This document shows positions 1 to 56,302 of a stretch of DNA of 64,000 bases, one piece after another. Numbering within the stretch: the first letter of the stretch is position 1; every line of letters starts with the position of its first letter. Source of the DNA: Ustilago trichophora (taxonomy: Eukaryota > Basidiomycota > Ustilaginomycetes > Ustilaginales > Ustilaginaceae); assembly GCA_900323505.1 (NCBI GenBank), contig OOIN01000001.1, forward strand, positions 1,488,001 to 1,552,000, in the 5' to 3' direction. A model generated the notes under the pieces. It did not search any database, was not told where the DNA came from, and saw nothing but the letters and a program-made list of their open reading frames with translations. The position numbers and the translations under genes were made by a program.

Positions 1-1871
1 CTCTCAGCTGCAAACAGCAACGATCGCTCAATCAGCCATCTGCAGGACTTTGACATGCGGACAGCTCAGGCTTCGTTGCCATGCAAGAGTCTCACCTCCC
101 TGAGCATCTCTGACCTGGTCAGGTCTATCATATTCAGCTCCGAACGGATGCTGATGACGGCGAGGCAAGTCTGAAAGCATCAAAGGACAAGCTGTCAGAT
201 ATGCTCAGCTGCTTTATTGGACCCGCTGCCGAACCCACCTTGAGCAGCTTGTCCCACGTCTTTGCAGAGCCAACTCCCCTGTTAAGAGCATAGCACAGGG
301 AGGGAAGCCCGCCAAGTTCTGCAAGCTTTGAACGGATTTGAATCACCTCTGAGGCTGACTCCTGCCGCACAAGTAGCTCAACGGCTTCGTGCCGTCGTTC
401 GATCTCCCCTCGCTTTGCCAGCGGCATCATGATCCATCGTCTCAGCATTGGTTGAGAGACTGGGGCGATTCAAGTCCGATGAGAATTTACAAGCTGGTCA
501 GCGCTCGAATCGAAGAGGTTCTGACGGATAGCCGTCTCACATTTGGAACAGGTTAGGCTCAACATGGCTGCAGGTAAGTAAGTAATGGAGCAGGCAATGT
601 AAGCAAAGGAACGAAGGAATCTGTCAGCCCCAGATCTCCACAAAGCAGCGGCTCCTGCAGAATACGTTATGTTGAAAGCGCCATCCGATAAAATACCCAG
701 AATGGAGAATCCTTCTCGACCCGCTTTGGCGTGCACGAATCCGTGGACATCACTGGAGCAGATGCTGAGGCTTTTTAGCGTATTTTCGTCAAGGTAGAGG
801 TAGTCGTCCAGGCACAGTGACACGAGAGTCAAGCTTCGACCAATATCTCTCCTGCTGCGCAGGCTTGATAGGAGAGGCGCCGCTGCCGCGACCTGTCATT
901 GTGGGTACGCAAGAAGAGAGCCCATTTTGAGGCCATGAGGTGAGGATTCAAATCTTATTCTGTCTGGCTTTTGACGTCTCGTCAGGGAAGACGACAACTT
1001 ACCGAAAGGCTGCATTTGGATGTGGCTACCCTTGCGTCAAGAAGCACGAGGCGTGTCATGGACCCTTCCTCGGAAGGACCGCACTCAAAAGTGCCGCGGA
1101 AAGCTGCAGATGCGCTACCGAAGGTGGTTGCCTCTTCTATGCTTGACAGGCCGAGTGCCGTCTGAAAGTCTCTGGCGGGGCGTAGCTCGAGCGTACCACT
1201 GCGTTGTTCAGCTGTCCAAGTTCGGTCAAGGGTGTTGCCGGTTAGCGACTTAGCGACGTACAGGAGCCCGTATCCAACTTGGCTGACAAATATTCCCCAA
1301 TGACGGGGTTCTTGGAGCCAAGTGCTGGCGAGCTACTGACCAAATTTCTGTAGCATGACAAGGATCGATTCAGGGCATCTGGCAGAGACGACTATGACAT
1401 CTGGGTGGAACTGCGAAAGTACTGCGTGTTTTGGCAAAAGATGATCAGCTGTCAAGTGAGCATTCGCGACGAAATGGGGATGCTGGGATAGCCCTGCAGG
1501 CCGTGCTTACAGCTCTCGACAAAGCCGTACGAAGCATGACCAAAGGCCGCAATAGTGCTGGTGGCTGCGGCAGATCCATCATCATCGTCATGTTGATCTG
1601 AAGCGTTGCCGGTGGTTCGGGCCGAGGCGAGCTGACCATTATCGTGGACGGCAAAGTCCCCAGGAAGGTCTTCGCATAGGAGCAGCTGATGTTCTTCCTC
1701 CACATAGACAGCACATCCGAATCGGCCATGCAGAGCTTCGATCGCTAAAGCCGAGATGGGAACTGCTGATTGGTCAATCGAAGCGCGGTTGTCGCCATCA
1801 GCTGGTAGCGAAGCAGCTGGCGTCCTTCCGCTTGCAGAGCCGAGCGCAAGAGATGGAGTTGTGGCGCTCAT
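1..1871 (-). CDS. MSH5: MSH5-like meiotic MutS homologue, 5' part, intron-rich, runs off the window
   Basis: MSH5 pairs with MSH4 in a clamp that stabilises meiotic recombination intermediates. No single long frame exists; I spliced it by eye. Proposed exons on the minus strand are 1511-1871 (ATG at 1871), 1341-1448, 1003-1211, about 665-892, about 270-486, about 150-200, then a last piece reaching position 1. The first three junctions keep frame exactly (donors GTAAGC, GTCAGT, GTAAGT; acceptors ending ACAG; a CTAAC branch site in intron 2). Family-like segments appear in the right order: GRFGCAVYVEEE near the N terminus, HPDVIVVSAR, ELRPARDFQTALGL, SLRSRRDIG, LDENTLKSL followed by REGFSILGILSD, then MLRRWIMMPL and LGGLPSLCYALNRG, the MutS core region. 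The ATPase domain lies outside the window. Exon 4/5 and later borders are uncertain because I could not find a fully satisfying donor. An in-frame TAG near 1350 falls inside intron 2. Confidence 0.72.
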
Positions 1872-4809
1872 GCTCAATCGACAACGTCAGCCTAGCGTGG
1901 TTCATGCATGTGCTCCAATTGACTGGGTGTGGACTTGTTTAAATGCTTGTCGCTTTCCTACTGCCGCAGTACGAAGGGCTGAGTTCGTCGCAACATCCAA
2001 TGCGGACGTGAAAGGCGACTCGAAGATGCAGGCACTCATTCTGCGATGCGATCTCTGTCGCCGTTGCAAGTCGGACGATGCAGGAGTCACTGAACGATAG
2101 GTGCAGCAAAGTGGCGGTTGGGAGCGATCTCGAAGCGTCCAAAGCGTGGGAAGCTTTTGTCGGAACGACACCGAGCTTCGCCGGATTTACCGATGCGGGA
2201 GGATGGTATGGCGGAAAACACAGACTGCATCCTTTCGGCAGACCCGTTTCCCGTATTTGGCAGCTGTGCAGGGTGAAGATCAATCAAAGCCACAGCAACG
2301 CTACAACTACAATACGCCCAACGCCCCTGGAAAACCTGTACATAGCCAGAAAACGCAGCCCGTTCTCGCGTAGAGCAGGTCGATTGCGCAGTGCTAAGAA
2401 AGGCGTGGGAAATCGACAGGCGATTGGAAAGCCAAACTTCAGACGATGTCCGTTCTCTTATCGTGGACGAAAAGTCGATGATAGTGCGGCACATGGTAAG
2501 GAGGAGCTGGCCTCCTGATTCAAGCTCCTGCAGGCCAGAGACAGATGGTCCATAGCGTGGGACCAAGATACAAGAGCATATGCGAAACGTCGAAACAGGA
2601 AAATAGAGTTTACCAGAGGAGTGGATGCAAGTCGAGGACCCAATCTGCGAGGGCAGGCGCGAGCCAAGACCTGAGAGAGGTGTCATGTGCTTGTGCCTGA
2701 ATTTGATGCAAGAACAAGCCGTTGAACCAAGAATCGGCTCTGGTATCTACAGAGATGAAAGCTGGAGCCGCACCTGTTTCGCCGAGGTGATGAAAGGGCG
2801 ACATCCACGAAGCGTCTTTGAAATTCAGCAAGCATTGGTGCAGGCGGAAAGGGGTCGCAGGTGTGGCAGGCTTCGCGACAAAAGGTTGCAGCGCTCTTGG
2901 CCGAAGCAGGCAGCGGAATGAGGGCTCCGACCATATGGTAAGTCACTGCTGTCCATCCACCTTTACTGCTACACTGGAGGCAACTGCAACACCAAAGACT
3001 TGGACTTGACTCAGAAGCCGCTGCGACTGATCGACAAAAGCCTGGCTTGCTTCACCATACACCTCGCTCCCTTTCAAGAGCGTTTGGAAGCTGCTGAATG
3101 TCAGAAACGAAGACCCGACCCAATGTGCCAAGATGCAGATACCGGCCTGCCAAGATCGAGAGGAGCAGCAGCTAGGTTCCGCGCTTCCTTATTCCTGTTC
3201 CGCACTGTCCTCCGACATTCTGGATAGTCACACCAGCCTATGCACAGACCCGGGACCCGCCTTGACGCTACCATCGCTCACACCGACTCCAACAGTACTA
3301 GCACACTCTGGCATGTTGAATAGCATGACATTGACTGCGCCGTGATGAGATCAAGAGCAAATGAGATGACCGTTTCATTTACCTGCATCCGGCCGCCACA
3401 CAGCTGGCGCGTCAATACCCAATTTCAAAAAGCGATGGTTCGTGCTGCAATACCATGTCCCGGTTGATGCTGAAAGCTGATGGAACGACCCAGTTTGAGT
3501 ATCAAGGCATCGGTTGGCGGTGTGTCGCCCTTGTTTGTGTTGCATGAGCCACAGCTCAAGCTATCATGCGATCCTTTGCCGTCAAAACTAAACTCGATTC
3601 GGGCTGCAGAAAAGGGCGTCTGCCGAGCAGTTCGACATGGTTTGCAAGCTGAGTCCTACCTTCCAACGAATGCAATGCTTTGGCTTCGCAGGTGGCTCGA
3701 CTGCCAAGGTGCACAGAACCTTCCACAAGTTACTTGGGAGGCTAATCGCTGGAGTGGCAACGCCTCTCTTTTTTTGACCGCGTTCCGAGGATTCGGGGCA
3801 GCAGATCCACACTCTCTCTGAAAGCTTCCAAACCGTTGGACTTCTCATTTGTTCTTGATTTTATACAGTATTTTTGTTTTAATTTTATTTCTCTCTCTCT
3901 CTCTCGTTCTCTCGCTTGGCAATCTACCGGCTCTAGCGCCGTTCCGGTGCAATTGTATGAAGCGGCACGTTAGCTCTTGTGAGCTCTTGTGGTCGGGCTG
4001 CTTCCGGCCATGGCTTGAAGAATACGCAGGCAGACACGACTAATTCTCTGCTTGTCTTGAGCTGCCCTGCGCTGCACTGTACCCTTCGCTTGAGAGCGCT
4101 CTCTCTTCGCTCTCTGTCTCCTCTCCTCTTTGAAAGCTTTCGTGCGCGCTTCTGCTTGGCAGCATCCATCCCGATGTACCGCTGCACCTTGTACCGCCGC
4201 CGATCTGCGGTTTATTCTTTATAGCTGAAGCACAAAAAGGGAGCCGCTTCATCGTCCTGATGAGCCTGCTGTTCGTTTGTCGACTGCTTCCACCAGATTT
4301 CCTGTCCTCTGCACACTACATCCAACGTCTACCGTCCTCGAACCTTCCAACAGTTACATGAGCACGAGTCCCATTTGCTGCATCGAGTTTTGCGCGTCAC
4401 CGTCACATCTCATCCCTGCTCAGTCAGACCACTGCAACGCCCGCAACTTCGACCGCAATCTTGGTTCTCTAGGTAAGCACAAACGATCTTCGTACGCCAC
4501 CGTAGTCAACTCCGTTTCGCAATCATCACTCCCGGAAGGCCCTTCCGATTGATTTGAACTGAGCCTGGACTGCGATCCTTCCACGCTAGACGCAGACACT
4601 GAAGCTCAATCGACTCAGCGTTCCCACGTACGCCATCCTCCACCAATTCAACTCAGCAAGCGCTCCTCATCAACGCTCGGATCATCCGATGGACAAAACT
4701 ATCGGCTGAAAACAGCTACGTGATGGAATCCAACCGCCTGTAGAAAAAAGCCAAAGGAATCCAATAAGTCCGAGCGGCACGGGTCCAACCGAATTGCAAC
4801 CACTCAGCG
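1872..4809. other. Unresolved 2.9 kb; possible intron-rich gene at about 2080-3350, then leader of the Zn2Cys6 gene
   Basis: No recognisable protein. Both strands carry short open segments of 60-200 codons with plausible splice sites. On the minus strand the frame 2087-2686 is open, and neighbouring segments at 2610-2946 and 2943-3131 look protein-like (for example VYGEASQAFVDQSQRLLSQV). On the plus strand a chain from ATG 2078 via a GTGAAG donor at about 2276 to an acceptor before 2349 keeps frame, and a GTAAGT donor lies at 2939. I cannot decide the strand or name a product. Positions 3500-4809 look like a promoter and leader, with a CT-dinucleotide run at about 3890-3905. Confidence 0.3.
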
Positions 4810-30700: not shown

Positions 30701-31265
30701 GGTGTGGCAATTTCCTTCTTTTGTTCTTGAAAACTCAGACTAAATCTGCAGCAACTCTGCGCTGAACTGCAATATTTTCTATTTTTTTTTTTTTAATTTT
30801 ATTTTTTTTATTTTTTTCAGAGGCTCGGAGTTGCTGCGTTTCTGCTGCAGAGAAGAGAGAGGTGCGAGTAGTGTGTGTCCCCTTTCTGTTGTGCTGTTCC
30901 ACTGTCACAGCTCGGCCACACGTGTGTGTATTCTGTGTTCTGTCAACGAGCGTCGCCTTGGGCGGACAAGCATCGATTGTCCTCCTCCTCTTCATACTCT
31001 CTCAGTACACATACTCTCTCTCAAACCTCGCCATGGTTTGGCTTTGACTCGCAATCGTTTCGTCGCTATCGTTTGTCGTCTCTGCCTTCCTTCCTCACCT
31101 CCTCTGTTCTAGGCTCCCGCCCCCCACACACATACACCCACACACCGCCGGTCTCTACTTTTCACCCACTACTCTGATCATCGCTCGTCGCTGGTTCGTC
31201 GTTCTCTTTGATCTCTCTTTTCTTTTCTCCTCCCAGCCTCTCCATCTAGACCTTCATTTACCGGC
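27765..31265. promoter_or_regulatory. Long intergenic region between MED16 and the Msb2-like gene
   Basis: About 3.5 kb with only short scattered frames on both strands and no protein I recognise. It holds simple repeats: GT dinucleotides at about 30115-30131, a TCTGCC hexamer run at about 30177-30206, and an almost pure T tract at about 30780-30818. The proximal part becomes increasingly CT-rich towards the mucin gene. It is divergent: the left edge serves MED16 and most of the rest is presumably the upstream region of the mucin gene. Confidence 0.45.
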
Positions 31266-32342
31266 TTGACCATCTTGCTCCTTTCATCCCGAAGCTACGC
31301 GAAACACGACGCTCCGACGTGCTTCCCTTCTTCCAACACCACCACCCCTCCTCATCACCACCTTCCCTCTCCACCCAACAACTCCCACCTCGGTCTGCAT
31401 CATCACTACCACCTTCTACAGCATCTTACTCCGACCTTGATAACTGCGCTTCTTGACGCCACATTCGTTTCAATCACCGCACACTCCCAACACCTCTGAC
31501 ATTCTCGATCAACCTCTCACTGACACAGACCGGTTCTGTGGCTTGCATGCTTCCTTTAACCATCCCGACCACGTCCTCCTGTCTCCACCGACGGTTGTCA
31601 AGCACGTATTCCTAGATTGCTCTAGCTTTCATTTGTCCCAACCGCCCACATTCTTGGCTCCAGCATCCACGCCCATCACGCTTTTCGACAGCCGCTTGGA
31701 TCGCTGCCGCCTTTTCTCCCCTTTTTGCATTCAGCTGCAGCTTGTCCACCTTCTCGATTCGTGCTCAGACCGCCTCGCATCGCCAGCTCACGTCTTGCTC
31801 CTTCTACTCCTCCGACCTCACATCTCCCCCTTCCCGACTCGGTCCCACTTCATTTGCGCTCCAGGCGGGCTTATCCCCTTTACCCGACACACTGCATAGG
31901 TGAGTATCGCTCTCGACTCGCTTGCCTCTTTGCACGTTCCCCCCCTTCTCCTGTCCTTTTCCATCCCCCCATCTCCCTCATCTGTCAATCTCAAACTTCG
32001 AGATCATGCTCAGTGCCTGCTAGGTCACCAATGTTTGGCGATCGAACTTTGCCTCTTTCACCATCATCTCGATCTAAACACATGGTCTTTCCATATCTTC
32101 CTTGCCTTCTTCCACCTTCCTCTCCTCCTCATCGCCGCCTTTCTTATCCAGCCTAGCCGCCTGCTGCTCTGGCGTGCTTAGTGCTCACCTCGTGCTCTTC
32201 TTGTTTCGTCCCGTTCAACTCACACTCTTTTGCTTCTGTCTTATGCCCTCTTCCAACGTCTCGCCCGCCTCTTTGCATCACCTCTTCTCATCCCGACCCA
32301 TCCTCCTGACCAATCTTACCATCTGGTCATCATCGCAGCATC
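31266..32342 (+). promoter_or_regulatory. Pyrimidine-rich 5' leader of the Msb2-like gene with probable leader intron
   Basis: About 1.1 kb strongly enriched in C and T on the sense strand. It contains several short upstream frames (for example those opening at 31453 and 32102). A GTGAGT donor at 31900 and an acceptor ending GCAG at 32338 define a likely 439-bp leader intron that ends four bases before the start codon and would remove some of the upstream ATGs. The intron is inferred from the sequence only. Confidence 0.4.
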
Positions 32343-35300
32343 ATGGTTTCGTTTCAGCCCACATTCAAGCTGATGCTCGTCAGTTTGAACTTGATTTTGT
32401 TCCTCGGCCTTCCGTCCACATCTGCCCACGCCAACGGATTGCATTCCAACAACATTGTCGCCTCTCACGCCGACAACGTCATTCGACGACATGCAGCTCG
32501 AGCAGGTCGCCTCTCCAAGCGGTTCCCGCCTGTACAGAGCTCAAACAGCAACACGCCTCCCATCGACAGGCGTCAGAGACATCGAAGCGACTACAGCGGC
32601 TATGGCCTGACGCCAGCAGAGATCGAGCAGCTCATTGAGGAAGAGGAGGCTCAGGACGACGGTTTCTATGTTCCGCCCTCCAATGCCACCAACACAACCA
32701 ACACTACCACGACGCGCGCACACACACGCACGCACACCCGCTCTCGCACGCGCACCAGCTCGGACTCGGATGAGCCCACTGGCACTTCAACACACCGCTT
32801 TGCACTACCCACCAGCAACTCGTCCTCGGCTTCCAACACCACATCCTCCCCCTCGCCCTCCGCCACGCACAAGTCCAGCGAGCAGCCGTATACTCCTCTG
32901 TACAACTCTACATCGTCGTCGAATTCGTCAGATGTTGACACTACTCCCTCGCGCAACGTTTCCTCTACCTCTTCTGCCAATCCCTCTCACAAAACCACCT
33001 CCACCAGCCTTCCTTCTACGTCTACATCCGACGACGAGGACAGCACGCCGTCGGCTTCGCAAACGTCGTCTTCGATCCCTAAAAGCTCTGAGTCCGGAAA
33101 CTCGACTACGACCGCCACGGAAAGCAACAACAATGACAGTGACAGCAACGAAAACAGTGTCGTTGGCGGCCTGCTCGGCGGTCTGTTGGGCTCAACCTCT
33201 TCATCGACTACACCAACGTCGCATCAGACGACCGACTCTTCATCTTCTCCGACCGCAGCATCGAGTCCCACGCACTCGTCTTCGTCGTCCAGCAACGAGG
33301 GCAGCGACAACGGTTCCTCGCCGTCGTCCAACAACGTGGGCAGTGACAATGGGTCCTCGTCGTCCTCCAGCAAACAAGGACACACCACTCAGCCCGACTT
33401 TGACAGCTTCACACCCCAGGCGACGCGCTCCTCGACCTCCGCTGCGCCGACGCCTACAGACAACGATCTCTTGCCTGGTCTGCTTCCCGTGCTCAGTCCC
33501 TCGTCGACCTCCTCGCATGCCTCCCCCACTGGGAATGCTTCGCCTACTGCGGCCCCATCGGGCTCACAGTCTGGATCGGGCTCGCACTCGGGGTCCAACA
33601 CATCCTCATCCAAGGGCTCGTCCGACGCTTCCAACTCGATCGACGACCCCGTGGATACCAACACCCACCAAAGCGCTTCTCCGACGCCCACTTCGAGCGG
33701 CAAAGGACCATCGCCTACCAGTCACAGCGACGACGGCAGTAACAACGGTTCGTCCATCTCTGCCACCACTCACACTGGCACTGCCACAAGCACCGATGAT
33801 GGCAATGCCTCTCTGACCTCCGGATCCATTACGGTAACAGTGGGGCCCACCTCAACGTCGCATGTTCCTGGTCCAGCTCCCACTGGCTCGACGACTGACG
33901 GTAAATCAGACTCTGGTTCCAGCAGTGGTCAGCAGCCGTCAGCGTCCACAAGTGGTGACACCCCGGCGCCGACTTCATCTCACTCTGACCACTCGGACTC
34001 GGGCTCGTCGACATCCTCGTCTGACTCGTCAGCATCTTCCTCCTCGACGGCCACCACCAACCCATACTGGTATGCCAACACACAGTCCTTGAACCTTGCG
34101 CCCAGCAGCACTTCATCCGCTGCCCACCCTGCTGAGACTGGATCACAGAGTGCTAGCAACGGCAACGCCGACTCGGACACTACCTCAACTTCGACGATCT
34201 CCGGCAGCGCTCCAGCTGCGCAGGACCTGCCTACCACCATTGTTCCCTCGGCAGACTCGTACAACCAGCCGCCCAACACGACCTCGATCGGTCTCTTGTT
34301 CAAGCAGGACATGAGGTGGTCGTGGGTCATTTCGCAGGCCGATTTGACAGCACAGATCTTTGCCTTCATGCCAGATCTCGTTGGTCAGTCGGCCGGTCTC
34401 GAGTCGTCCAAGGTTTCCACTGTCAAGTTGGCTAGCTATTCGCCAGAGACTGCAACCACCGCAAGCCCGAGCACGCTTTCGACGGCCAGGACGCTGTACA
34501 TGGCCTTCGTGCCCACGTCGAGCGTCGAGGACATCCAAGCCATGATCTCCAACACTTCCTCGCCCTTCTACGTTTCGGCTGCTCCAGGAGCGCCACAGCA
34601 GCTTGCCAGCCAAGTCGACCCCACCTTCAACATTCTCAGTGTTGCTGGACAGGTTGCCGCTGGAGCCAAGCAAAAATCGACCTCTGGCAGCGGAGGATCC
34701 AAAGACGATTCGACGCTGCGTAACAGTCTGATCGGCGTTGGATGCGGCTTGGCTGGTGCCTTTGCCCTTGTCGTCGGTGGTTTGCTCTGGCGAAAGAACC
34801 GCAAGGACAAGAAGGAGTCGACTGCTGGTGGTGCCAATGGCGCGCTCTCGCGTGCCCACACCATCCGCTCCTTCAGCGGTGGATTGCGCGAGACATGGGC
34901 ACCGGATGCGCTGGATCAGCACCGAGCACTCGACACTGCCGGTCAGATGCAGCAAGTTTGGTCACCGCACGATGGTATGATGGCTGTGGGACACCCTGCA
35001 CAGCCCATGCACTCGCAGTCGGACGGATTCGGCGGCTACGTTGCTGACCCCTTCCAAGAAGCTGCGATGGGCGGCGCTGGCAATTACGTCAACATGAACC
35101 GATCAAGCCGCATGACGGAGCGATCCAACTACTCGGACCTGAGCCAGATGACTGAGGCCCAGCGCATCCAGTACGATTATGAGTCTTCTCGTCGATCGTT
35201 CCACTCTACGTCGGACCACTCTAGCTCGCACGGTTCTCACAGCGGCCAGAGCAACGAGTCAGCCGGTATGCTCTCCACCTACCAGGAGGACTACCGTGTC

Positions 35301-35420
35301 CCCCGCCAGCATACTAGCAAGCACGCCTTTGGTACGCGCTCCAGCAGCCGTCGCCGTGGCAGTGTAGCTAGCTCCACCATTGGTCGCCCAGAGATGATGA
35401 GCAACTCGGTTCTCCTTTGA
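32343..35420 (+). CDS. MSB2: Msb2-like signalling mucin, single-pass membrane protein
   Basis: A 1025-residue protein with ATG at 32343. Residues 1-29 form a signal peptide (hydrophobic core LMLVSLNLILFLGL, cleavage after SAHA likely). Residues about 30-625 are an extreme serine/threonine-rich mucin region with many Asn-X-Ser/Thr sites. A conserved globular membrane-proximal domain spans about 629-770 (IVPSADSYNQPPNTTSIGLL, QADLTAQIFAFMPDLVG, TLYMAFVPTSSVEDI), matching the Hkr1/Msb2 homology region. One transmembrane helix lies at about 796-816, followed by a basic stop-transfer and a roughly 200-residue cytoplasmic tail rich in serine. In fungi this family senses surface cues upstream of Cdc42 and MAPK cascades, and in smuts it takes part in plant-surface recognition. 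The orthology call is from architecture and the homology domain. Confidence 0.8.
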   Translation: MVSFQPTFKLMLVSLNLILFLGLPSTSAHANGLHSNNIVASHADNVIRRHAARAGRLSKRFPPVQSSNSNTPPIDRRQRHRSDYSGYGLTPAEIEQLIEEEEAQDDGFYVPPSNATNTTNTTTTRAHTRTHTRSRTRTSSDSDEPTGTSTHRFALPTSNSSSASNTTSSPSPSATHKSSEQPYTPLYNSTSSSNSSDVDTTPSRNVSSTSSANPSHKTTSTSLPSTSTSDDEDSTPSASQTSSSIPKSSESGNSTTTATESNNNDSDSNENSVVGGLLGGLLGSTSSSTTPTSHQTTDSSSSPTAASSPTHSSSSSSNEGSDNGSSPSSNNVGSDNGSSSSSSKQGHTTQPDFDSFTPQATRSSTSAAPTPTDNDLLPGLLPVLSPSSTSSHASPTGNASPTAAPSGSQSGSGSHSGSNTSSSKGSSDASNSIDDPVDTNTHQSASPTPTSSGKGPSPTSHSDDGSNNGSSISATTHTGTATSTDDGNASLTSGSITVTVGPTSTSHVPGPAPTGSTTDGKSDSGSSSGQQPSASTSGDTPAPTSSHSDHSDSGSSTSSSDSSASSSSTATTNPYWYANTQSLNLAPSSTSSAAHPAETGSQSASNGNADSDTTSTSTISGSAPAAQDLPTTIVPSADSYNQPPNTTSIGLLFKQDMRWSWVISQADLTAQIFAFMPDLVGQSAGLESSKVSTVKLASYSPETATTASPSTLSTARTLYMAFVPTSSVEDIQAMISNTSSPFYVSAAPGAPQQLASQVDPTFNILSVAGQVAAGAKQKSTSGSGGSKDDSTLRNSLIGVGCGLAGAFALVVGGLLWRKNRKDKKESTAGGANGALSRAHTIRSFSGGLRETWAPDALDQHRALDTAGQMQQVWSPHDGMMAVGHPAQPMHSQSDGFGGYVADPFQEAAMGGAGNYVNMNRSSRMTERSNYSDLSQMTEAQRIQYDYESSRRSFHSTSDHSSSHGSHSGQSNESAGMLSTYQEDYRVPRQHTSKHAFGTRSSSRRRGSVASSTIGRPEMMSNSVLL

Positions 35421-48689: not shown

Positions 48690-48880
48690 TATGATATGGC
48701 GAGGCGAGGGGGGAGGAAATGGAAAGGGATGATGGTAGAGAAGTAACAAGAACGACAAAACAAGTTGAGACGTTGATGCTTTTGGTACGGCGTTCTACCC
48801 AATTCGGGATGATTGGATGGTTCAAGCTCCCCGTGCGCCATGCAAAAACGAAACTCCTGCGTCTGTGCGCACACACAATA
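48690..48880 (-). promoter_or_regulatory. Residual PGM upstream region left of the transposon
   Basis: 191 bp of host sequence between the PGM start and the transposon left end. No clear TATA box seen. Any upstream activating element further out has been displaced by 5.7 kb. Confidence 0.55.
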
Positions 48881-48914
48881 GGGGGTTTCAAATTTTTCGA
48901 GTTTTTGAAAACTC
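48881..48914 (+). repeat. Left terminal inverted repeat
   Basis: It begins GGGGGTTTCAAATTTTTCGA and matches the reverse complement of the right end, with a single missing T. It overlaps a hairpin whose arms lie at 48898-48915 and 48925-48942. Confidence 0.9.
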
Positions 48915-48942
48915 GGGTTTTTTTCGAGTTTTCAAAAACTCG
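48898..48942. repeat. Terminal hairpin at the left end
   Basis: Two exact 18-nt reverse-complement arms, CGAGTTTTTGAAAACTCG at 48898-48915 and its complement at 48925-48942, separated by nine bases. Confidence 0.92.
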
Positions 48943-49181
48943 AGTCTGCAATTGCTTATGTAAGCTCAGCCAAACTCGAAAAAAATCGGGTTTTCAAACA
49001 TTCGCCTATTTCGAGTGTGGTGCGACCATCGAGTCTGGGTCTGGGTTGGGTCTACAAAGCCACGTGACGTATCCCGACTTCCGCGCCTTCTAACTGCGCA
49101 CTCCGCAAAGACCTGCTCAACTTGTACCTTTTCGCTCTCTTCTGTCAACCATCGTCTCCAACATTTCCGCGCCTTGTCGGA

Positions 49182-50852
49182 ATGGAGAACTATCTTCATT
49201 CCCACGATGGCGAGAGCCAGAGCTTATCTCTTGGCTGCGAAAACACTTCTTTGACAACAATCTCTGCCAGCAAAAACATGGACAATTCAGCGCTTCCTGC
49301 GCTCAGGCTTCCTCTGCCCAGCGCGGGAGGCGAGTCCACAGGCTCCTCATCCGATGTTTCTCGCCAGCCATCATCTTCTCATCCTACAACCGCCGCTTCC
49401 AATTCTCGCACGCAGCAACAAGCATCTTCGTATCGCCGTACACTTCCTGCCCGCGCTACTCGCTCAGTCTCATCGGTCCCAAGCGCCTCATCGTCCCGGT
49501 TTACCAGAGGTGGAACGTACTTCAACTGGACGGACGAGGAAACCGAGCGTCTCGTGGACGTTATATACAACTCACCAAGATTCCAGATCGCTTTACTACG
49601 AGGTCGAGTCAGCAACGCCCAAGAAAAGGGACATAAAACGAACAAAGTTGTCACTTGTCGAGAAGTATTCAAGCTGGTGTTCCCCAACGAAGACGTCGCA
49701 AACTGTGGCGATTGTATTAAAGCCAAGCTTCGCGGGTTAGAAGAAAAGTACAAGAAGATCAGAGCTTCGTTGTCGCAAACAGGATCTGGTCTTCTTTTTC
49801 GCAACATGCAATCCAACCACTCGGTGAGTACGCCGACACTTTGTCTTGGTATGGTATGATTACATTGGGTTACATGGAACTGACGAACTACCTTTCCTTC
49901 CTTGACCTCTCTGCTTTAGGACTTTACCAACCGTGCCGCAATCACTAAGACCTACCCTTGGTTTGAGCGGTGGCACGAGATGGCAATCAATCGCCCCGAG
50001 ACCGGTCCTGTGGTCTTGCTCACCAGCACGCCTTACGACTCTACGCCTGCCCCCGCCACTACGCCTGCCCCCGCCACTACGCCTGCCCCCGCCACTACGC
50101 CTGCCCCCGCCACTACGCCTGCCCCCAGCACTTCTGAATCCAATGTACATGACATGGACGAGGACGATGACGACATCTTTCCTGGAGACCGTCGCATTCC
50201 TTCATTGGATGCAATTGCCGAATCTTCTTCCGAGGACCCATTCTCAGGTCGGGTCCTTGCTTCCTCTTTGTCGCACCCGAACACGCATGCATCACCTCTT
50301 CGCAACAATGCCTTGTCCAGCCACGCTTCTACCACCTCCATCAGCACCCCTTTACCCGTCAACGACACCGTCCGCCGTAATGCCAGCTCTGCATTTGGTG
50401 CTGACGGTGAAGAAGATCTCAACAACAGATCGGCTCGTGACTCGGTAACCTCGGATGCGATTCCCAGGTTTCGATCGACTTCTCAAGCAAGGGGGGGGAA
50501 GCGCGACGATATCTCTGACCTCATGCGCATCTTCATCGAAGGCCAATCAGAGACACGAGTCAAGGTGGAGGAAGAGCGCACAAAGCGCGAGGAAGAGCTC
50601 ACAAAGCGAGAGGAACAGCTCACAAAGCGAGAGGAAATGCGACTCAAGTACCAGGAAAAGGAGCATGAAAGGATGGAGCGGATGAGAGTTAGGGATCATC
50701 ACTTCATGCTCAGTGTCCTTGGATACGCTCGTCCTTCTGCAGCCACCGATCACAACAACATGAACAACATGTGCCTCAACAGCATGATTGGTGGCTTGGA
50801 TGAATCACTCCATGAACAGGGCGCCGAGACCTTCAACAAGCGCGTTCCTTAG
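49182..50852 (+). CDS. Transposon Myb/SANT-like DNA-binding protein, two exons
   Basis: Exons 49182-49823 and 49920-50852 (96-bp phase-0 intron, donor GTGAGT, acceptor TTTAG) encode 524 residues. ATG 49278 is an alternative start. Residues about 113-235 form the Myb/SANT-like domain found beside fungal transposases: FNWTDEETERLVDVI, REVFKLVFPN, CIKAKLRGLEEKYKKI, and across the splice junction to TKTYPWFERWHEM, which supports the intron. A proline-rich hexapeptide tandem follows, then an acidic serine-rich stretch. The C-terminal helix has KREEELTKREEQLTKREE, probably coiled coil. In PIF/Harbinger elements this partner binds the transposon ends and helps bring the transposase into the nucleus; that role is inferred here. 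Confidence 0.82.
50043..50132 (+). repeat. 18-bp minisatellite encoding TPAPAT repeats
   Basis: Four exact copies of ACGCCTGCCCCCGCCACT plus one degenerate copy, in frame within the Myb-like gene. The copy number is likely to differ between transposon copies. Confidence 0.93.
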
Positions 50853-51195
50853 TCTTGTGGCTTGGCCCAGCCACTCACAAACGAGCGACGTCTCTTCAAT
50901 CGGTGTGGCTCGGTACTTCCTTCCTCGCTCTCCTGTACCATTGTAACTTGTAGTGATCGTCGCATCATCATTCAATTCAACCGTCTGTCATCGTCTGTAC
51001 ATGATTGCGATCAACCTTGTCTCCAAATGGTTGGGTGTGTGCGCATATCCGAATTCCGAGAACGCGTGAGCTGCGCACTTTTGGTCTTTACTGCGCAGTT
51101 TTTGACTTGCTTTCTCACAACTCTTTCCTCCTTCCTTCCGTCAAACACCAACACCAACACCAACACCACCACCTTCGACGACATCACATACAGCC
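50853..51195 (+). promoter_or_regulatory. Spacer before the transposase gene
   Basis: 343 bp within the element. It contains ATCCGAATTCCGA at 51047-51059, which recurs inverted at 54439-54451 near the right end, and a CAACACCAACACC tandem just before the transposase ATG. Confidence 0.5.
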
Positions 51196-52743
51196 ATGGT
51201 TCGGGTCTCCTCCAAGCAGGAACTCCTCAATCAACTACAAACAGCGATTCAGCATTCGATCCTTTTCGAAACCTTGTTGAATTCAGAATTGGCTATAGAC
51301 AACAACTGCAGTGACAGCTACGACGACGACTACGAGTATGCTTTCGCACGTGCACTTGCCGTTATGTACTTAGCTGTCTTAAGCGACCGATACTCTGTGG
51401 AACGTCACCTCTTGTCTCGCCGCAAGGACACTATTCTGGATCGACTTGACCACTACTCCGAATACAACCATAAGCTCTACCGCGGCCTAGTTCGCATGAC
51501 ACCGCAGGCATTCGAGGACCTCACACTACGACTCAGCTCAACGGATGTCTTCAAGAACACCAGGAATTACAGGAGGGTTCAAATGCAGATTGCGGTCGGG
51601 TTGTACTGCCTAGGTCGATCGGGAAATGGCGGAGGCGTTCGTGATGCTGCCTTTGCTTGCGGGTGCTCATGGGGTTCCGTCCATCTTTGGACTGAGAAGA
51701 CAATCAAGGCACTTTACGAGATCAACACCGAGGTAGTCACCTTTGCTACCGAAGATGAACGCGCCAAGGCCTCCGCCTGGGTTAAGGAAAAATCTGGCGT
51801 GGAAGAATGGGGTCGCGGATGGCTTGTTGCAGACGGCACACACATCAACCTCGCGTGGAAACCTGCAATGAATGCTCGAGAGCACTACTCGTACAAAGGT
51901 GACTACACTTTCAACGTTGCTCTTGTCTTTCTTCCTCATTCTCTTCGCATTGTGGAGTCAGTCGTTGGCCATCCTGGTTCTTCTCATGACTCGCGTGTCT
52001 GGGCGTCTGGCCAGGGCATCGTAGCCAAACCTCGTCTGCATCTGGACGAAGGCGAGTTTGTCTGGGTGGATTCCGGATTCGGGTACTCAAGCTATTCTGT
52101 CAGTCCATATGGAAATACTTTCGCTAACCAGAGCCGCGACATCAGGTTCTTCAACTTCAGCATGTCTCGCATCCGCGTTCGAGCAGAGCATGGAATCGCC
52201 TACCTCAAGAATCGCTTTCAGTGCCTAATGGGTTATCAAGGAAACCTATATCGAGAGGAGGACCACCAAAAGGCGGCGTACGCCATTCAAGCATGCATCA
52301 TTGCCCACACATTCGCCAGCCGTTACGACAGACCCGACGATGTAGCCGAATATCTGTTGGAAACGTATTCCCCTGAAGTTGTCCAAGATGTCACAGCCGA
52401 ACTCAGCTCTTACCAGCAAGCTACGGAAGGTGCAAGGGTACACCGTCGAGAGAACCAAGTTCGTTATGAACAGGAACTGGCACGTGCGACGGAAGGCATG
52501 TCTCAACGGCAGCTTGCCACCTTTAGGGCTGATGCCGCTCACGCTCTTCGAGAGGAAATGGTTACCGCTTTGTTCACATCTTATTCTCGCCAATTCGAAG
52601 ATACAACCGCGGCCTCTAGGCGAAGAGGCAGGACAGAGGCTGGACTTGAATCGGAACAGGGACGTGTCGCTCGACGCAACGAGGCACGAAGAGCTCAAAG
52701 GTCACAGCAGGCTCAACAGTCACAGTCTCAGGACGCGCAATAG
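51196..52743 (+). CDS. DDE transposase, PIF/Harbinger type (DDE superfamily endonuclease)
   Basis: 515 residues, ATG 51196 in good context, stop TAG at 52741. The N-terminal part (about 1-150) is helical and contains a helix-turn-helix-like stretch (MQIAVGLYCLGRSGNGGGVR, then VHLWTEKTIKALYE). The nuclease core shows the Harbinger pattern: GWLVADGTHINLAW with Asp213, a YSYKGDYTFNVALVFLP strand pair, VVGHPGSSHDSRVW, WVDSGFGYSSY with Asp292, and RVRAEHGIAYLKNRFQCL with Glu331. All three acidic catalytic residues are therefore present. The C-terminal about 150 residues are charged and glutamine-rich. It would cut and join element ends in the nucleus together with the Myb-like partner. Confidence 0.92.
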   Translation: MVRVSSKQELLNQLQTAIQHSILFETLLNSELAIDNNCSDSYDDDYEYAFARALAVMYLAVLSDRYSVERHLLSRRKDTILDRLDHYSEYNHKLYRGLVRMTPQAFEDLTLRLSSTDVFKNTRNYRRVQMQIAVGLYCLGRSGNGGGVRDAAFACGCSWGSVHLWTEKTIKALYEINTEVVTFATEDERAKASAWVKEKSGVEEWGRGWLVADGTHINLAWKPAMNAREHYSYKGDYTFNVALVFLPHSLRIVESVVGHPGSSHDSRVWASGQGIVAKPRLHLDEGEFVWVDSGFGYSSYSVSPYGNTFANQSRDIRFFNFSMSRIRVRAEHGIAYLKNRFQCLMGYQGNLYREEDHQKAAYAIQACIIAHTFASRYDRPDDVAEYLLETYSPEVVQDVTAELSSYQQATEGARVHRRENQVRYEQELARATEGMSQRQLATFRADAAHALREEMVTALFTSYSRQFEDTTAASRRRGRTEAGLESEQGRVARRNEARRAQRSQQAQQSQSQDAQ

Positions 52744-53076
52744 GATGCAGTGGCGACGAGAAGCGCCTTGCCCAACAGCGCACTCCTCTCGCCCCAGCAT
52801 CCCTTTCGAATCGAAACGCAGCAGGAGCCTCGTCGCCACTCGCCTAACCCTCAAGCAGTCCCCTCAAGAGCCAGGCCTCTAGCTCGAGGGAACCACACAG
52901 TTCACTTAAAGGTAAGTTTTATTCCGGCTCAAGAATGTTTTGCTACCTTCGAAGTTTCTGACAATTTCTATCTTTCATCCATCTCGCAGCTTCATCACCA
53001 CTTCACTTTCCTACATCGTCACCGTCGGCACTCCTCGGTTGCCCTCTCCTCGCCATCATTGCTGAGGAGGACTCCC
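52744..53076 (+). other. Spacer between transposase and MCM4-derived frame, with probable intron
   Basis: The frame is open through this spacer but without a convincing start. A consensus donor GTAAGT at about 52912 and an acceptor CGCAG at about 52989 suggest a 78-bp intron. The piece before the donor reads NHTVHL, which could be the remnant of the MCM4 zinc-finger segment; this is weak. Confidence 0.4.
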
Positions 53077-54288
53077 ATGTCGCTCATCCACAACCGATGC
53101 GAGTTCTCGGATTGCCAGGTCGTTTGCATTCAGGAGACTCCCAACGTCGTTCCTGATGGTCAGACCCCTCACACCGTAAGCATGTGCGCCTACGACGAAT
53201 TGGTCGACGTCAGCAAGCCTGGTGACCGCGTCGAGATCACCGGTATCTTCCGAAGCACACCTGTCCGCGTCAACCCTCGACAGCGTAGTCTCAAGAGTCT
53301 CTACAAGACATTCGTTGACATCCTTCACATCAAGCGCACCAACGCCAAGAGGCTCGGCGTTGATCTCTCTACTCGAGACGCTTCCGAGCAAGCTGCCGGC
53401 CCTGGCGCGCAAGCTGTCGGTGTCGGCGGTGAGGAGGACGACGAGGATGTCGATGTGCAGAGCGGCTTTGGTGGAGATGCAACTCACAGTGTCTTGCACG
53501 AAGTGAAGGAGCAGCAGACGCTCAGCATCGCCAAGGCCGGTATCATTACCACCCTCAATGCACGTGCCTCGATCCTCACGGCTGCCAACCCAACAGGCTC
53601 GCGCTACAACGTCAACCTGCCCATCACCAAGAACATCGATCTTCCTCCTACCCTCATCAGTCGATTTGATCTGGTCTACCTGGTGCTCGACAAGATCGAC
53701 GAGGCCAACGATCGCCGTCTGGCTTGCCACCTGGTCAGCCTCTACTTGGAAGACAAGCCCGACACTAGTGGCAAAGACATTCTGCCCATCGAGACACTCA
53801 CCGCCTATATCTCTTACGCACGCAACCGCATCTCGCCGGTCCTCACCAAGGAAGCCGGTGACGCTCTCGCTGCTCGCTACATCGAGCTGCGTAAAGTCGG
53901 TGAGGACCCACGCAGCGCCGAGGGCCGAATCACTGCTACAACAAGACAGCTCGAATCGATGATCCGTCTGTCCGAGGCACACGCTCGCATGCGTTTCGCC
54001 GACGAGGTTGTAGTGGACGATGTTGAGGAGGCAGCCCGTCTGATCCGCAAAGCAGCCAAGTCTTCAGCTACCGACCCGCGCACTGGCCTTGTTGACCTGG
54101 ACCTCATCAACACAGGCCAATTGTACCACCAGCGCAAACTTGCTGGCGATCTGCGACACGAGCTCCTCCAACTGCTCGACGAGATGGGCAGCGGCTTTGG
54201 CAGGGCTACCTCTCCTTCGGGCCCTTCGTCGACTGCCCCGACCAAAGCTGTTCGATACGTCGATTTCGCCAAAACGCTCAATGACTAG
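53077..54288 (+). CDS. MCM4: Captured MCM4 replicative-helicase sequence lacking Walker A and B
   Basis: A 403-codon open frame starting MSLIHNRCEF. Residues 1-105 match the MCM4 N-terminal OB-fold region (ETPNVVPDGQTPHTVSMCAY, GDRVEITGIFRSTPVRVNPR, KRLGVDLSTRDAS). Near residue 130 (about 53465) the text jumps to the part just after Walker B: THSVLHEVKEQQT, AGIITTLNARASILTAANP, LPPTLISRFDLVYLVLDKID (arginine-finger SRF at 195-197), ILPIETLTAYISYARNRISP and RQLESMIRLSEAHARMRF. The roughly 200 or more residues holding Walker A (GDPG-SKSQ type) and Walker B (DEFDK type) are absent, as are the zinc-finger cysteines and the N-terminal A domain. The C-terminal winged-helix is cut at FAKTLND. It cannot hydrolyse ATP by itself. 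The frame stays open despite the deletion. Confidence 0.85.
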   Translation: MSLIHNRCEFSDCQVVCIQETPNVVPDGQTPHTVSMCAYDELVDVSKPGDRVEITGIFRSTPVRVNPRQRSLKSLYKTFVDILHIKRTNAKRLGVDLSTRDASEQAAGPGAQAVGVGGEEDDEDVDVQSGFGGDATHSVLHEVKEQQTLSIAKAGIITTLNARASILTAANPTGSRYNVNLPITKNIDLPPTLISRFDLVYLVLDKIDEANDRRLACHLVSLYLEDKPDTSGKDILPIETLTAYISYARNRISPVLTKEAGDALAARYIELRKVGEDPRSAEGRITATTRQLESMIRLSEAHARMRFADEVVVDDVEEAARLIRKAAKSSATDPRTGLVDLDLINTGQLYHQRKLAGDLRHELLQLLDEMGSGFGRATSPSGPSSTAPTKAVRYVDFAKTLND

Positions 54289-54559
54289 TCGACGGTGACG
54301 GTTTCTGTGTCATTGTTCCTGATAACTCAAGCTACCTCAGCGTTGCCATCTTTGTATATACAGATGTTTGTGTTGTGGCCACCACCGTCTTCAATTGAGT
54401 CTTTGTGACATGCTTTCACGTCTGATATGTGCGGGATTTCGGAATTCGGATCACGACTAGTCGGCCGTGTGAAGCCCAGACTCGAGTCTCCTAGACCCAA
54501 ACTTGTTGCACAAAAATGGGGGCGTCAAAAGTTGAGTAAACGCGAGTTTTTGAAAACTT
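54289..54559. other. Non-coding right end of the transposon
   Basis: It contains the inverted copy of the CCGAATTCCG motif at 54439-54451 and CCCAGACTCGAGTC at 54475-54488. The latter is the inverted counterpart of CGAGTCTGGG seen near the left end at 49029-49038. Confidence 0.6.
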
Positions 54560-54594
54560 GAGTTTTCAAAAACTCGAAAAAATTTGAAACCCCC
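54560..54594 (-). repeat. Right terminal inverted repeat
   Basis: The reverse complement starts GGGGGTTTCAAATTTTTTCG and matches the left end for 34 of 35 positions. It overlaps a hairpin with 16-nt arms at 54543-54558 and 54561-54576 separated by TG. Confidence 0.9.
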
Positions 54595-54596
54595 TA

Positions 54597-56302
54597 ATTA
54601 CTCGCTTGGGCGTCTAGAATTTCGAATTTATTCAGACACAAAAGGGTGTTGTTGGGATCGTAACGCCACCCCGTGCTCTGTGCGCTGTGCTGCGAGGATT
54701 TGCGCTGCAGTTTGTCAGTTTGCGCCAAGTGCCCCAATCGATCTTGTCTGGACCCTAGCAGAGTGTTCGAATTTCCAGATTCACCGGTCCGCTCTTCCCT
54801 CAAATATTTTTACATTTCATTTGTTAGCAACGCATCTTAACATTCTGAAACACAAAATCGACGACACGTGATGCTGTCGCGAGTATCTTTTTCGCAAACT
54901 GCGCAGGCTGCAAAGGCGTGCGTGCATGTTTGTCAATCAACACATGGAAATTCAAAGAAAGGAGCTGCGCTGCGCTGCACGTCGCCAATCCTTCTTCTGC
55001 CAACTCTTAGAGCCGGCAAATCGAACCGGTCAAGCTTGTGCGACACAAAGCTTTGATGATGATACCAGTCGCTCGCTTCGCTATGTCGTTGGGTTGGCGA
55101 TCCTAGTTAACCGTGGGTGTGTATGTCGTGCAAGCCATTGTGTGCGCGCCTTTTCTTGCTGTTCCTCTCGCTATACCTTCTCTGGCTGGGAGTGTAGAAG
55201 CAAAGCATTTTCGACACTTGTTTTCGAGGACCACTTTTTTGGCATACGATTTTTTGTTTTGATTTCCGAAATGAAATTTGGAGGTGCGCTCGAGAGAAAG
55301 AAAGGTGAAACAGACATCGGAACCTTGCCAAAAGAGCCTCTGTCCAAGTGCGCCTGCCTACCTTGGATTCAGCATCTGCTGCAGCATGCATCAAGTGTTT
55401 TTTCTCGCTTGGCCCTCCACTCGATAACGCTGTTCGTACAATCTTGGATGGCTCAGCTGATCACATCAACCTCACCATCAAGGTTGGAGAATGCCAAGGA
55501 TGTGGCAAGGACACTCACTCCAATGGAAGAGATGCCAGGAAGCACCTCCCAACCCCGATTATGTCGGTGCTTTGAATATACGATCCCGCCCTTGACAACG
55601 TCGTCGCAGTTCTACTCGGCCTCCGCAACATTTGATTCTGAATACAACAATCATCGTGTGTCAGTGTGAGCAGTGAGTGGAATCGTCACAGGACAAGACC
55701 GAACAATCCAGGTCTACTGTACTATGCTGAGCGCAAAAATAGCCAACATGCATCCTAATGCAAGCCTCGCCCTCCCCACACATTCACATTTTGACACTTT
55801 TCTCTTGCTTCACGAGCCATATCGACTTTTTCCTCTTTCCTCTCAACCTCACTCCGATCTCCTTTCACCTTTCCATCTTTCCCATCCGCCAACACCGTCA
55901 TTGCTTTCCACCCAACAGTCCACCTCAATCATGTCATCTGCAATGCTGCTTCCGCCCATCTAGATTCCTCAGCCACAACTGTCATCCAAAATACCCCTGC
56001 TCACAGCCGCTTTTTTCCATACAATCCGCCTGGCCATCTCGATACCCTTCGCTCACTCCTGTCCTAAGCAAACACCAACCCCTAACACTGGAGCCTTTGC
56101 AACACTTGACAGCTGCTCCGTGCATCAACCCCTCCGTCAAGCTTCTCTGACACCACCATCCTTCCTCAAGATCAACACTTTGCCCCTCCGGAAGTCATCA
56201 ACACCAGGCAGCCGAAAACCAACGTAGCTACCTAACGATTGCATTCAGTAGCGTTATCAACAATCTTGCCAGCCTGCTCGCTTCCGTCCCATTTCACCAA
56301 CA
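54597..56302. promoter_or_regulatory. Upstream region of the PH-domain gene, right flank of the transposon
   Basis: About 1.7 kb without a recognised gene. An open frame of 247 codons from ATG 54926 to 55669 has no similarity I know and cysteine-rich, atypical composition; I do not call it a gene. From about 55780 the plus strand becomes strongly CT-rich, as do the leaders of other genes in the window. Confidence 0.5.

Follow-up and report, generated by a model that had tools for sequence, protein, structure and literature searches.

A fragment of the host gene MCM4 is carried inside a Harbinger-like DNA transposon of Ustilago trichophora, and this fragment is probably a passively captured remnant that was partly overwritten from the host gene before the element spread, most simply by gap repair. 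The element lies in the window, by which is meant the whole stretch of 64,000 nucleotides that was analysed (contig C1, 1488001-1552000), taken from an assembly of 38.8 Mb in 45 contigs. Intact MCM4 is present on two contigs of this assembly, C5 and C8, each gene having two exons and 1018 codons, and between them exon 2 has a dS of 0.31 with a dN/dS of 0.033. Other conserved genes also occur in diverged pairs (C1/C2 and C40/C41), and the two published U. trichophora assemblies are given as 20.7 Mb each (PMC4966473; PMC8951962). Judging by the diverged gene pairs, the divergence of the C5 and C8 MCM4 genes and the size of the published assemblies, the assembly seems to hold two diverged genomes.

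The transposon is a complete PHIS (Harbinger-like) element of 5716 bp on the forward strand (48880..54595; ends AGGGGG...CCCCCT), its borders being given by alignment with seven other copies and by target-site duplications (TSDs). The terminal inverted repeats (TIRs) are approximately 43 bp long and lie at 48880..48921 on the left and, on the reverse strand, at 54553..54595 on the right; the first 18 bp are perfect, followed by one indel relative to the right end. The two TSD copies read AAT (3 bp; 48877..48879 and 54596..54598). The first gene (49122..50852, forward strand) probably has two exons, corresponding to the frames 49122-49859 and 49980-50852 with a splice placed by eye, and shows a weak Myb/SANT-like similarity (Pfam Myb_DNA-bind_4, E 0.023, weaker than the cut-off). 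The second gene (51196..52743, forward strand) encodes a DDE transposase of 515 amino acids (Pfam DDE_Tnp_4, E 6e-19), whose frame is open in all eight complete copies of the family and which has a dN/dS of 0.146 between the window family and its sister element on contig C16. The MCM4 cargo sits between the transposase gene and the right end. Within the first gene, an 18-bp tandem array at 50041-50126 comprises 4.8 units in the window copy, and the array stretch ranges from 79 to 205 bp across the seven of eight element copies measured.

In end-to-end alignment, identity to the window copy is 97.5-99.5% in the other seven copies. The 3-bp TSD is identical on both sides in all eight copies and extends to 4 bp in none; the sequences are AAT three times, ACT twice, and AGT, ACA and TGT once each, so that six of the eight are ANT, while the two non-ANT sites, ACA and TGT, each have a dinucleotide repeat beside them. 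For the target site, the form N|TA...TA|N was considered and dropped in favour of the 3-bp duplication. The proposal that the MCM4 segment is carried by a Harbinger-like DNA transposon is thus borne out by the TSDs and by the DDE_Tnp_4 match. Copies lacking the segment had been named in the original prediction as a sign of one-off passive capture; it is present in each of the eight complete copies that were found, and in one of them (C37:401900-407000) the cargo is interrupted by an insert of 7.4 kb, with 4 bp overlapping at the insert edges. A ninth left end with a partial transposase was found near the terminus of contig C17, where the copy is cut by the contig end, and searches of the genome with the left and right ends gave no further complete family member, the counts being lower bounds. 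Contig C2 holds a homeologous site that matches the flanks of the window copy and is without the element.

Among known groups, the element most resembles the Pangu group of PHIS, for which ANT TSDs, AG/GG termini and TIRs of 11-40 bp are described in the available part of the source (PMC4482050); Harbinger2 of Repbase is named in the same context (PMC12730594). The likeness consists of the DDE_Tnp_4 transposase, a possible Myb/SANT-like second gene, termini of the AG type and a 3-bp TSD that is mostly ANT. The TIR of about 43 bp with one indel, starting AGGGGG, is slightly over the published range, and, unlike Pangu, the element has a third unit, which is a piece of a host gene. The window element is apparently an autonomous Harbinger-like (PHIS, probably Pangu-type) transposon of U. 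trichophora, and its open frames, TSDs and similar copies suggest that it would be moved by its own transposase.

An open frame of 403 codons (53077..54288, forward strand) was originally recognised as MCM4 without Walker A and Walker B, and Pfam profiles, a PDB match and a 453-bp gap relative to the host gene all agree with this. The best PDB sequence match is a yeast MCM4 chain (E 5e-134). In Pfam terms, the frame covers positions 66-125 of 126 of the MCM_OB profile, 136-224 of 224 of the MCM P-loop domain and 1-86 of 87 of the MCM lid, i.e., the second halves only of the first two and nearly the whole of the third; what the frame lacks is the whole region up to the middle of the OB domain, as well as the first half of the AAA core. 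The described inventory of OB fold, arginine finger, sensor-2 and lid consequently holds insofar as MCM4 parts are present, with the OB fold reduced to its second half. The missing 453 bp (151 codons) contain GDPGIAKSQ and CCIDEFDKM, which we take to be Walker A and Walker B; both are found in the host MCM4 frames and neither in the window frame, while the arginine-finger and sensor-2 regions sit in what is left. The frame is open in 7/7 uninterrupted copies. It ends at 54286 with a TAG derived from a host CAG (C>T), which leaves the 40 last host residues outside the frame, the stop thus not being that of MCM4 itself. Walker A and Walker B being missing and strong purifying selection not being seen, the cargo would not appear to be a working replicative helicase subunit. 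In protein searches, no near-identical protein to the cargo was found among the best 120 of 2260 matches in a database clustered at 90%, a level at which an annotated copy of the cargo could go unseen, and the top-scoring match is 63% identical, the highest identity among those listed being 73%; among the best 120 of 1575 matches to host MCM4, no U. trichophora protein was named.

Comparison with the host genes extends the MCM4 sequence upstream of what had been noticed, to 52757-53076, where exon 1, intron 1 and the start of exon 2 are found. The cargo is collinear with host MCM4 in four blocks: host c8 289-565 corresponds to 52757-53031, 730-779 to 53029-53078, 1607-2012 to 53075-53480, and 2461-3288 to 53476-54303, the host coordinates being those of the oriented host stretch used in the alignment. 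The captured exon 1 (52757..52911, forward strand) is without the native ATG, which is absent from the whole cargo, and its native frame is stopped by a TAA in 8/8 copies; intron 1 (52912..52990, forward strand) retains its GT and AG ends; and the 3' part (53482..54303, forward strand) comprises the sensor, arginine finger and lid. The C8 allele is the nearest host sequence, with 98.8% and 95.5% identity in the two main blocks. A captured and trimmed host gene fragment, one of the two possibilities raised originally, is accordingly what is found, with intact MCM4 on C5 and C8 and a collinear cargo; the suggested search for the full host gene also allowed the deletion borders and the bases shared at the joins to be read.

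The cargo was first described as the product of one in-frame excision near 53465. A single clean excision is ruled out by three internal joins, which delete 167, 831 and 453 bp and of which the first is not a multiple of three. Join D1 (53029-53031) accounts for the 167 bp and is out of frame, D2 (53074/53075) for the 831 bp, and D3 for the 453-bp ATPase-core block from Walker A to Walker B; the frame is indeed open across D3, which lies at 53479..53481. By script count, D1 has three exactly shared bases and D2 and D3 have none, while for D3 the count would be 2-3 bp (GC or GCT) on the assumption of a later T>A change at 53481, which is the reading given by the polarised comparison. Elsewhere, one base is shared at a join in the cargo of the sister elements on C16 and C44, and three at a join in the SAR1-like cargo of two other relatives. 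The five distinct joins measured in these cargoes have lengths of 167, 831, 453, 765 (C16/C44) and 968 bp (SAR1-like); that three of the five are multiples of three is within chance (binomial 0.21, by hand), and the same applies to the two of three window-cargo joins that keep the frame. The right side of D2 (53074-53076) agrees to within 4 bp in the window and C16/C44 cargo lineages, lying just before ATGTCGCT, and the left sides differ by approximately 60 bp.

The cargo is a mosaic of ages, as was seen when the state found in most of the eight copies was compared with both host alleles. Exon 1 (52757..52911) has 15 changes in 155 sites, of which five fall in the leftmost 20 bp, a stretch of doubtful homology, and intron 1 (52912..52990) has eight in 79; the start of exon 2 has none in 38 sites, the block after it one in 42 and the OB block none in 402, followed by a 3' part with eight changes in 425 and then 16 in 382 sites (24/807 to 54288). 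The exon 2 pieces at 52991..53480 (forward strand), which include D1 and D2 and end at D3, thus form a fresh tract near-identical to the C8 allele, with one change in 482 sites (52991-53478) against 47 in 1041 in the surroundings (p 3e-7, to be read with the borders of the tract having been picked after the data were seen). A change-free run as long as that observed (439 sites) occurred in none of 20,000 permutations. The right border of the tract is join D3, the place that had been described as the in-frame excision. Protein constraint was rejected as the reason for the identity of the OB block, the ancestral cargo being also without synonymous changes there, and polymorphism of the source allele was rejected as the origin of the older flanks, in which nonsynonymous changes predominate or a stop has arisen. 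On the line leading to the window copy, the OB block later gained three changes, all of them nonsynonymous CpG transitions and one of them common to one other copy. Taken together, the pattern suggests that the cargo was partly re-copied from host MCM4 before the eight-copy family spread.

Changes in the cargo accumulate at the rate expected without selection. When the two host alleles are used for polarisation, 21 nonsynonymous and nine synonymous changes fall on the branch of the window cargo, whereas two and 65 fall on the host C5 branch (Fisher, p 3e-12). With CpG transitions, other transitions and transversions taken in the proportions observed, 20.3 nonsynonymous changes of 30 are expected in the absence of selection (p 0.85), and when four ambiguous synonymous sites are added to the cargo, 22.9 of 34 are expected against the 21 observed (p 0.47). 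The pairwise dN/dS between the cargo and host C8 is 0.445, which leaves room for weak constraint; by block, the value is 0.40 for the 3' block and 1.22 for the OB part, the latter on five changes. Within the family of eight copies, the nonsynonymous/synonymous ratio is 0.54 for the transposase and 0.49 for the cargo, and these nearly equal values mean that young polymorphism does not discriminate between the two. Neutral decay, the other sign of passive capture named at the outset, is what the data show within their power. The cargo appears to decay without detectable selection as a passive load from which no maintained MCM4 protein would be made, and the 403-codon frame is probably open largely because the tract 52991-53478 is young.

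Relatives of the element place these events in order. In a decayed copy on contig C38, MCM4 spans host c8 1414-3287, includes the ATPase core and ends at the same right border as in the window family; genome searches yielded neither a transposase match nor a left end for this copy. An uncut core together with the same right border indicates that loss of the core followed capture. The C38 copy and the window family have nine derived changes in common in 758 sites of the 3' block, eight of them at 54049-54265, and none in 402 sites of the OB block. The changes of its own that C38 has gained in these two blocks are CpG transitions in 64 of 79 cases, and those of C16 and C44 are mostly CpG transitions as well, a bias in decayed copies that is as expected if repeats are CpG-methylated.

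A second cargo lineage is formed by the sister elements on C16 and C44, whose transposases are 86-87% identical to that of the window element and in which MCM4 occupies the same slot in the same orientation. Their cargo is 96.5-96.7% identical to the C5 allele and 83-85% to the C8 allele, and it includes the native start and intron, giving a 214-codon N-terminal frame in both after inferred splicing. The outer left borders differ, that of the window family being at host c8 ~283-289 and that of C16/C44 at host c5 106. The C16 and C44 cargoes have eight changes in common in 708 sites, as against 88 on the C8 side, and so few common changes imply that capture in this lineage was later than the split of the host alleles.

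The same slot also accepts a second gene. In two relatives (C2:2345594 and C28:569633), the transposase is directly followed by a 349-bp fragment of a GTPase gene (Pfam Arf), which we take to be SAR1, together with a 50-bp upstream piece. The fragment is 98% identical to a gene on C41 and 94% to one on C40, matches the Arf profile from position 58 onwards, so that the P-loop part is missing, and has an internal join of its own (968 bp). In total, 21 transposase matches were found, and the downstream side was inspected in 20: 12 have recognisable host-gene cargo (the eight family copies and two sisters with MCM4, and two with the SAR1-like fragment), five have an end-like motif nearby without recognised cargo, two have a frame of another kind, and one is ambiguous. 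The two relatives with this frame (C1:2542453 and C20:710300) have approximately 100 codons open after the transposase, for which neither another match in the genome nor a Pfam match was found.

These observations would fit a history in which a stretch of host MCM4 was captured between the transposase gene and the right end of the element, and in which a later excision break was followed by DNA synthesis templated on host MCM4 that overwrote part of the older cargo. Slippage or template switching during this synthesis may have left D1 and D2, end joining of the newly copied stretch to the older cargo may have left D3 and removed the ATPase core, and the overwritten copy would then have been amplified into the eight-copy family. 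We infer that gap repair was the route and that one repair event could account for all three joins; if the template was chosen by homology to cargo already inside the element, this would explain why the same gene recurs in two element lineages. The coincidence of the right border of D2 across those lineages counts against this account, which leaves it unexplained, and so do the small number of bases exactly shared at the joins and the doubtful homology around five of the exon 1 changes. It is possible, but rather unlikely, that MCM4 was instead captured twice or more by chance or at a hot spot, without homology-guided renewal, and that the mosaic reflects pieces acquired at separate times. The different outer left borders and source alleles of the window family and C16/C44, and the late capture in the latter, speak for this reading; however, the same gene in the same orientation and slot is improbable twice at random, independent capture of the same sequence is expected to be rare according to the available part of a survey of plant Pack-TYPE elements (PMC8903248), and the fresh tract is nested, in collinear order, in older MCM4 sequence. 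The gap-repair reading could be taken further, to a host-templated renewal of cargo in which break repair, once a piece of MCM4 has entered, returns to the host gene as its template, the MCM4 of each sister element comes from the host lineage in which that element resides, and the renewed identity, not a protein, may shield the elements from silencing; we regard this extension as unlikely.

Selection for such identity would amount to camouflage, in that small RNAs or methylation directed at the sequence of an essential gene would hurt the host gene, silencing would be hampered, and renewed MCM4 or SAR1 identity would be favoured irrespective of coding. MCM4 and SAR1 are both essential in yeasts, identity was renewed before amplification, and the genome has two Piwi and six DNA methylase matches alongside decayed copies that mutate mainly at CpG; the idea has also been published for plants (PMC13317346). 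Yet there are eight copies only, these gain CpG mutations and hence are not evidently spared, and the flanking cargo has been left to decay, which makes camouflage very unlikely here. More improbable still is a helicase-dead MCM4 kept by the element to join or poison MCM2-7 or to tether it to replication, as the original prediction entertained. The open frame in the uninterrupted copies and the arginine-finger and sensor-2 regions would suit that proposal, but it is left unsupported by the no-selection rate of nonsynonymous change and by a native frame that is dead, with its start gone and its exon 1 stopped in every copy; the first halves of the OB domain and AAA core lie outside the frame, and the C16/C44 sisters retained a quite different, N-terminal part of the gene.

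Several known systems resemble parts of this one. In Pyrenophora tritici-repentis, hAT elements carry a histone H3-like gene and represent fungal transduplication (PMC3538342); in both cases, copies of a cellular gene are spread by a fungal DNA transposon that is likely autonomous, with about ten near-identical copies in that fungus, but the H3-like gene is reported in the available part of the source to be expressed and mostly full length, whereas the MCM4 cargo is fragmentary, in decay and renewed in part from the host. Transduplication in this sense applies to the window family, in which host-gene sequence lies between the TIRs in eight copies and host MCM4 is still present. Plant Pack-TYPE elements, with Harbinger-PIF among those surveyed, likewise contain host-gene fragments between TIRs that are spread by transposition; however, they are non-autonomous by definition, and the window element has an intact 515-aa transposase frame (PMC8903248). 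PHIS transposons with an extra captured gene are also described from Basidiomycota in the TET/JBP elements of rust fungi, where the TET/JBP gene is common to many related families according to the available text, unlike the MCM4 cargo, which bears no sign of selection and is of fresh host origin (PMC12730594). With regard to mechanism, foreign filler DNA at transposon excision sites is attributed to ectopic SDSA, and the copying of foreign segments into breaks with short-homology joins is similar, although here the filler is internal to the element and takes the place of older cargo that came from the same gene of the host (PMC4423477). Gene capture has been ascribed to repair errors, its route being described in the part of the source available as still unsettled (PMC3260210). 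To repair-based capture of this kind, the present case adds a template that seems to be chosen by homology to resident cargo. A published transposon with MCM cargo was not found in the literature searched, at the level of titles and the beginnings of abstracts.

Gene capture by cut-and-paste transposons is usually taken as a finished event. One genome here offers a series, composed of the uncut C38 copy, an amplified mosaic copy, a cargo lineage from the other allele and, in the same slot, a second gene; whether transposon cargo is renewed on a host template thereby becomes directly testable in a culturable fungus, which also puts on offer a natural test of whether essential-gene cargo protects a transposon. 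Elsewhere in the window, a frame of 1025 codons (32343-35420) is serine/threonine-rich, with a signal and a membrane segment recognised by eye, and the GC skew just before and within it reaches -0.50 at 31001-32000 and -0.37 at 32001-33000.
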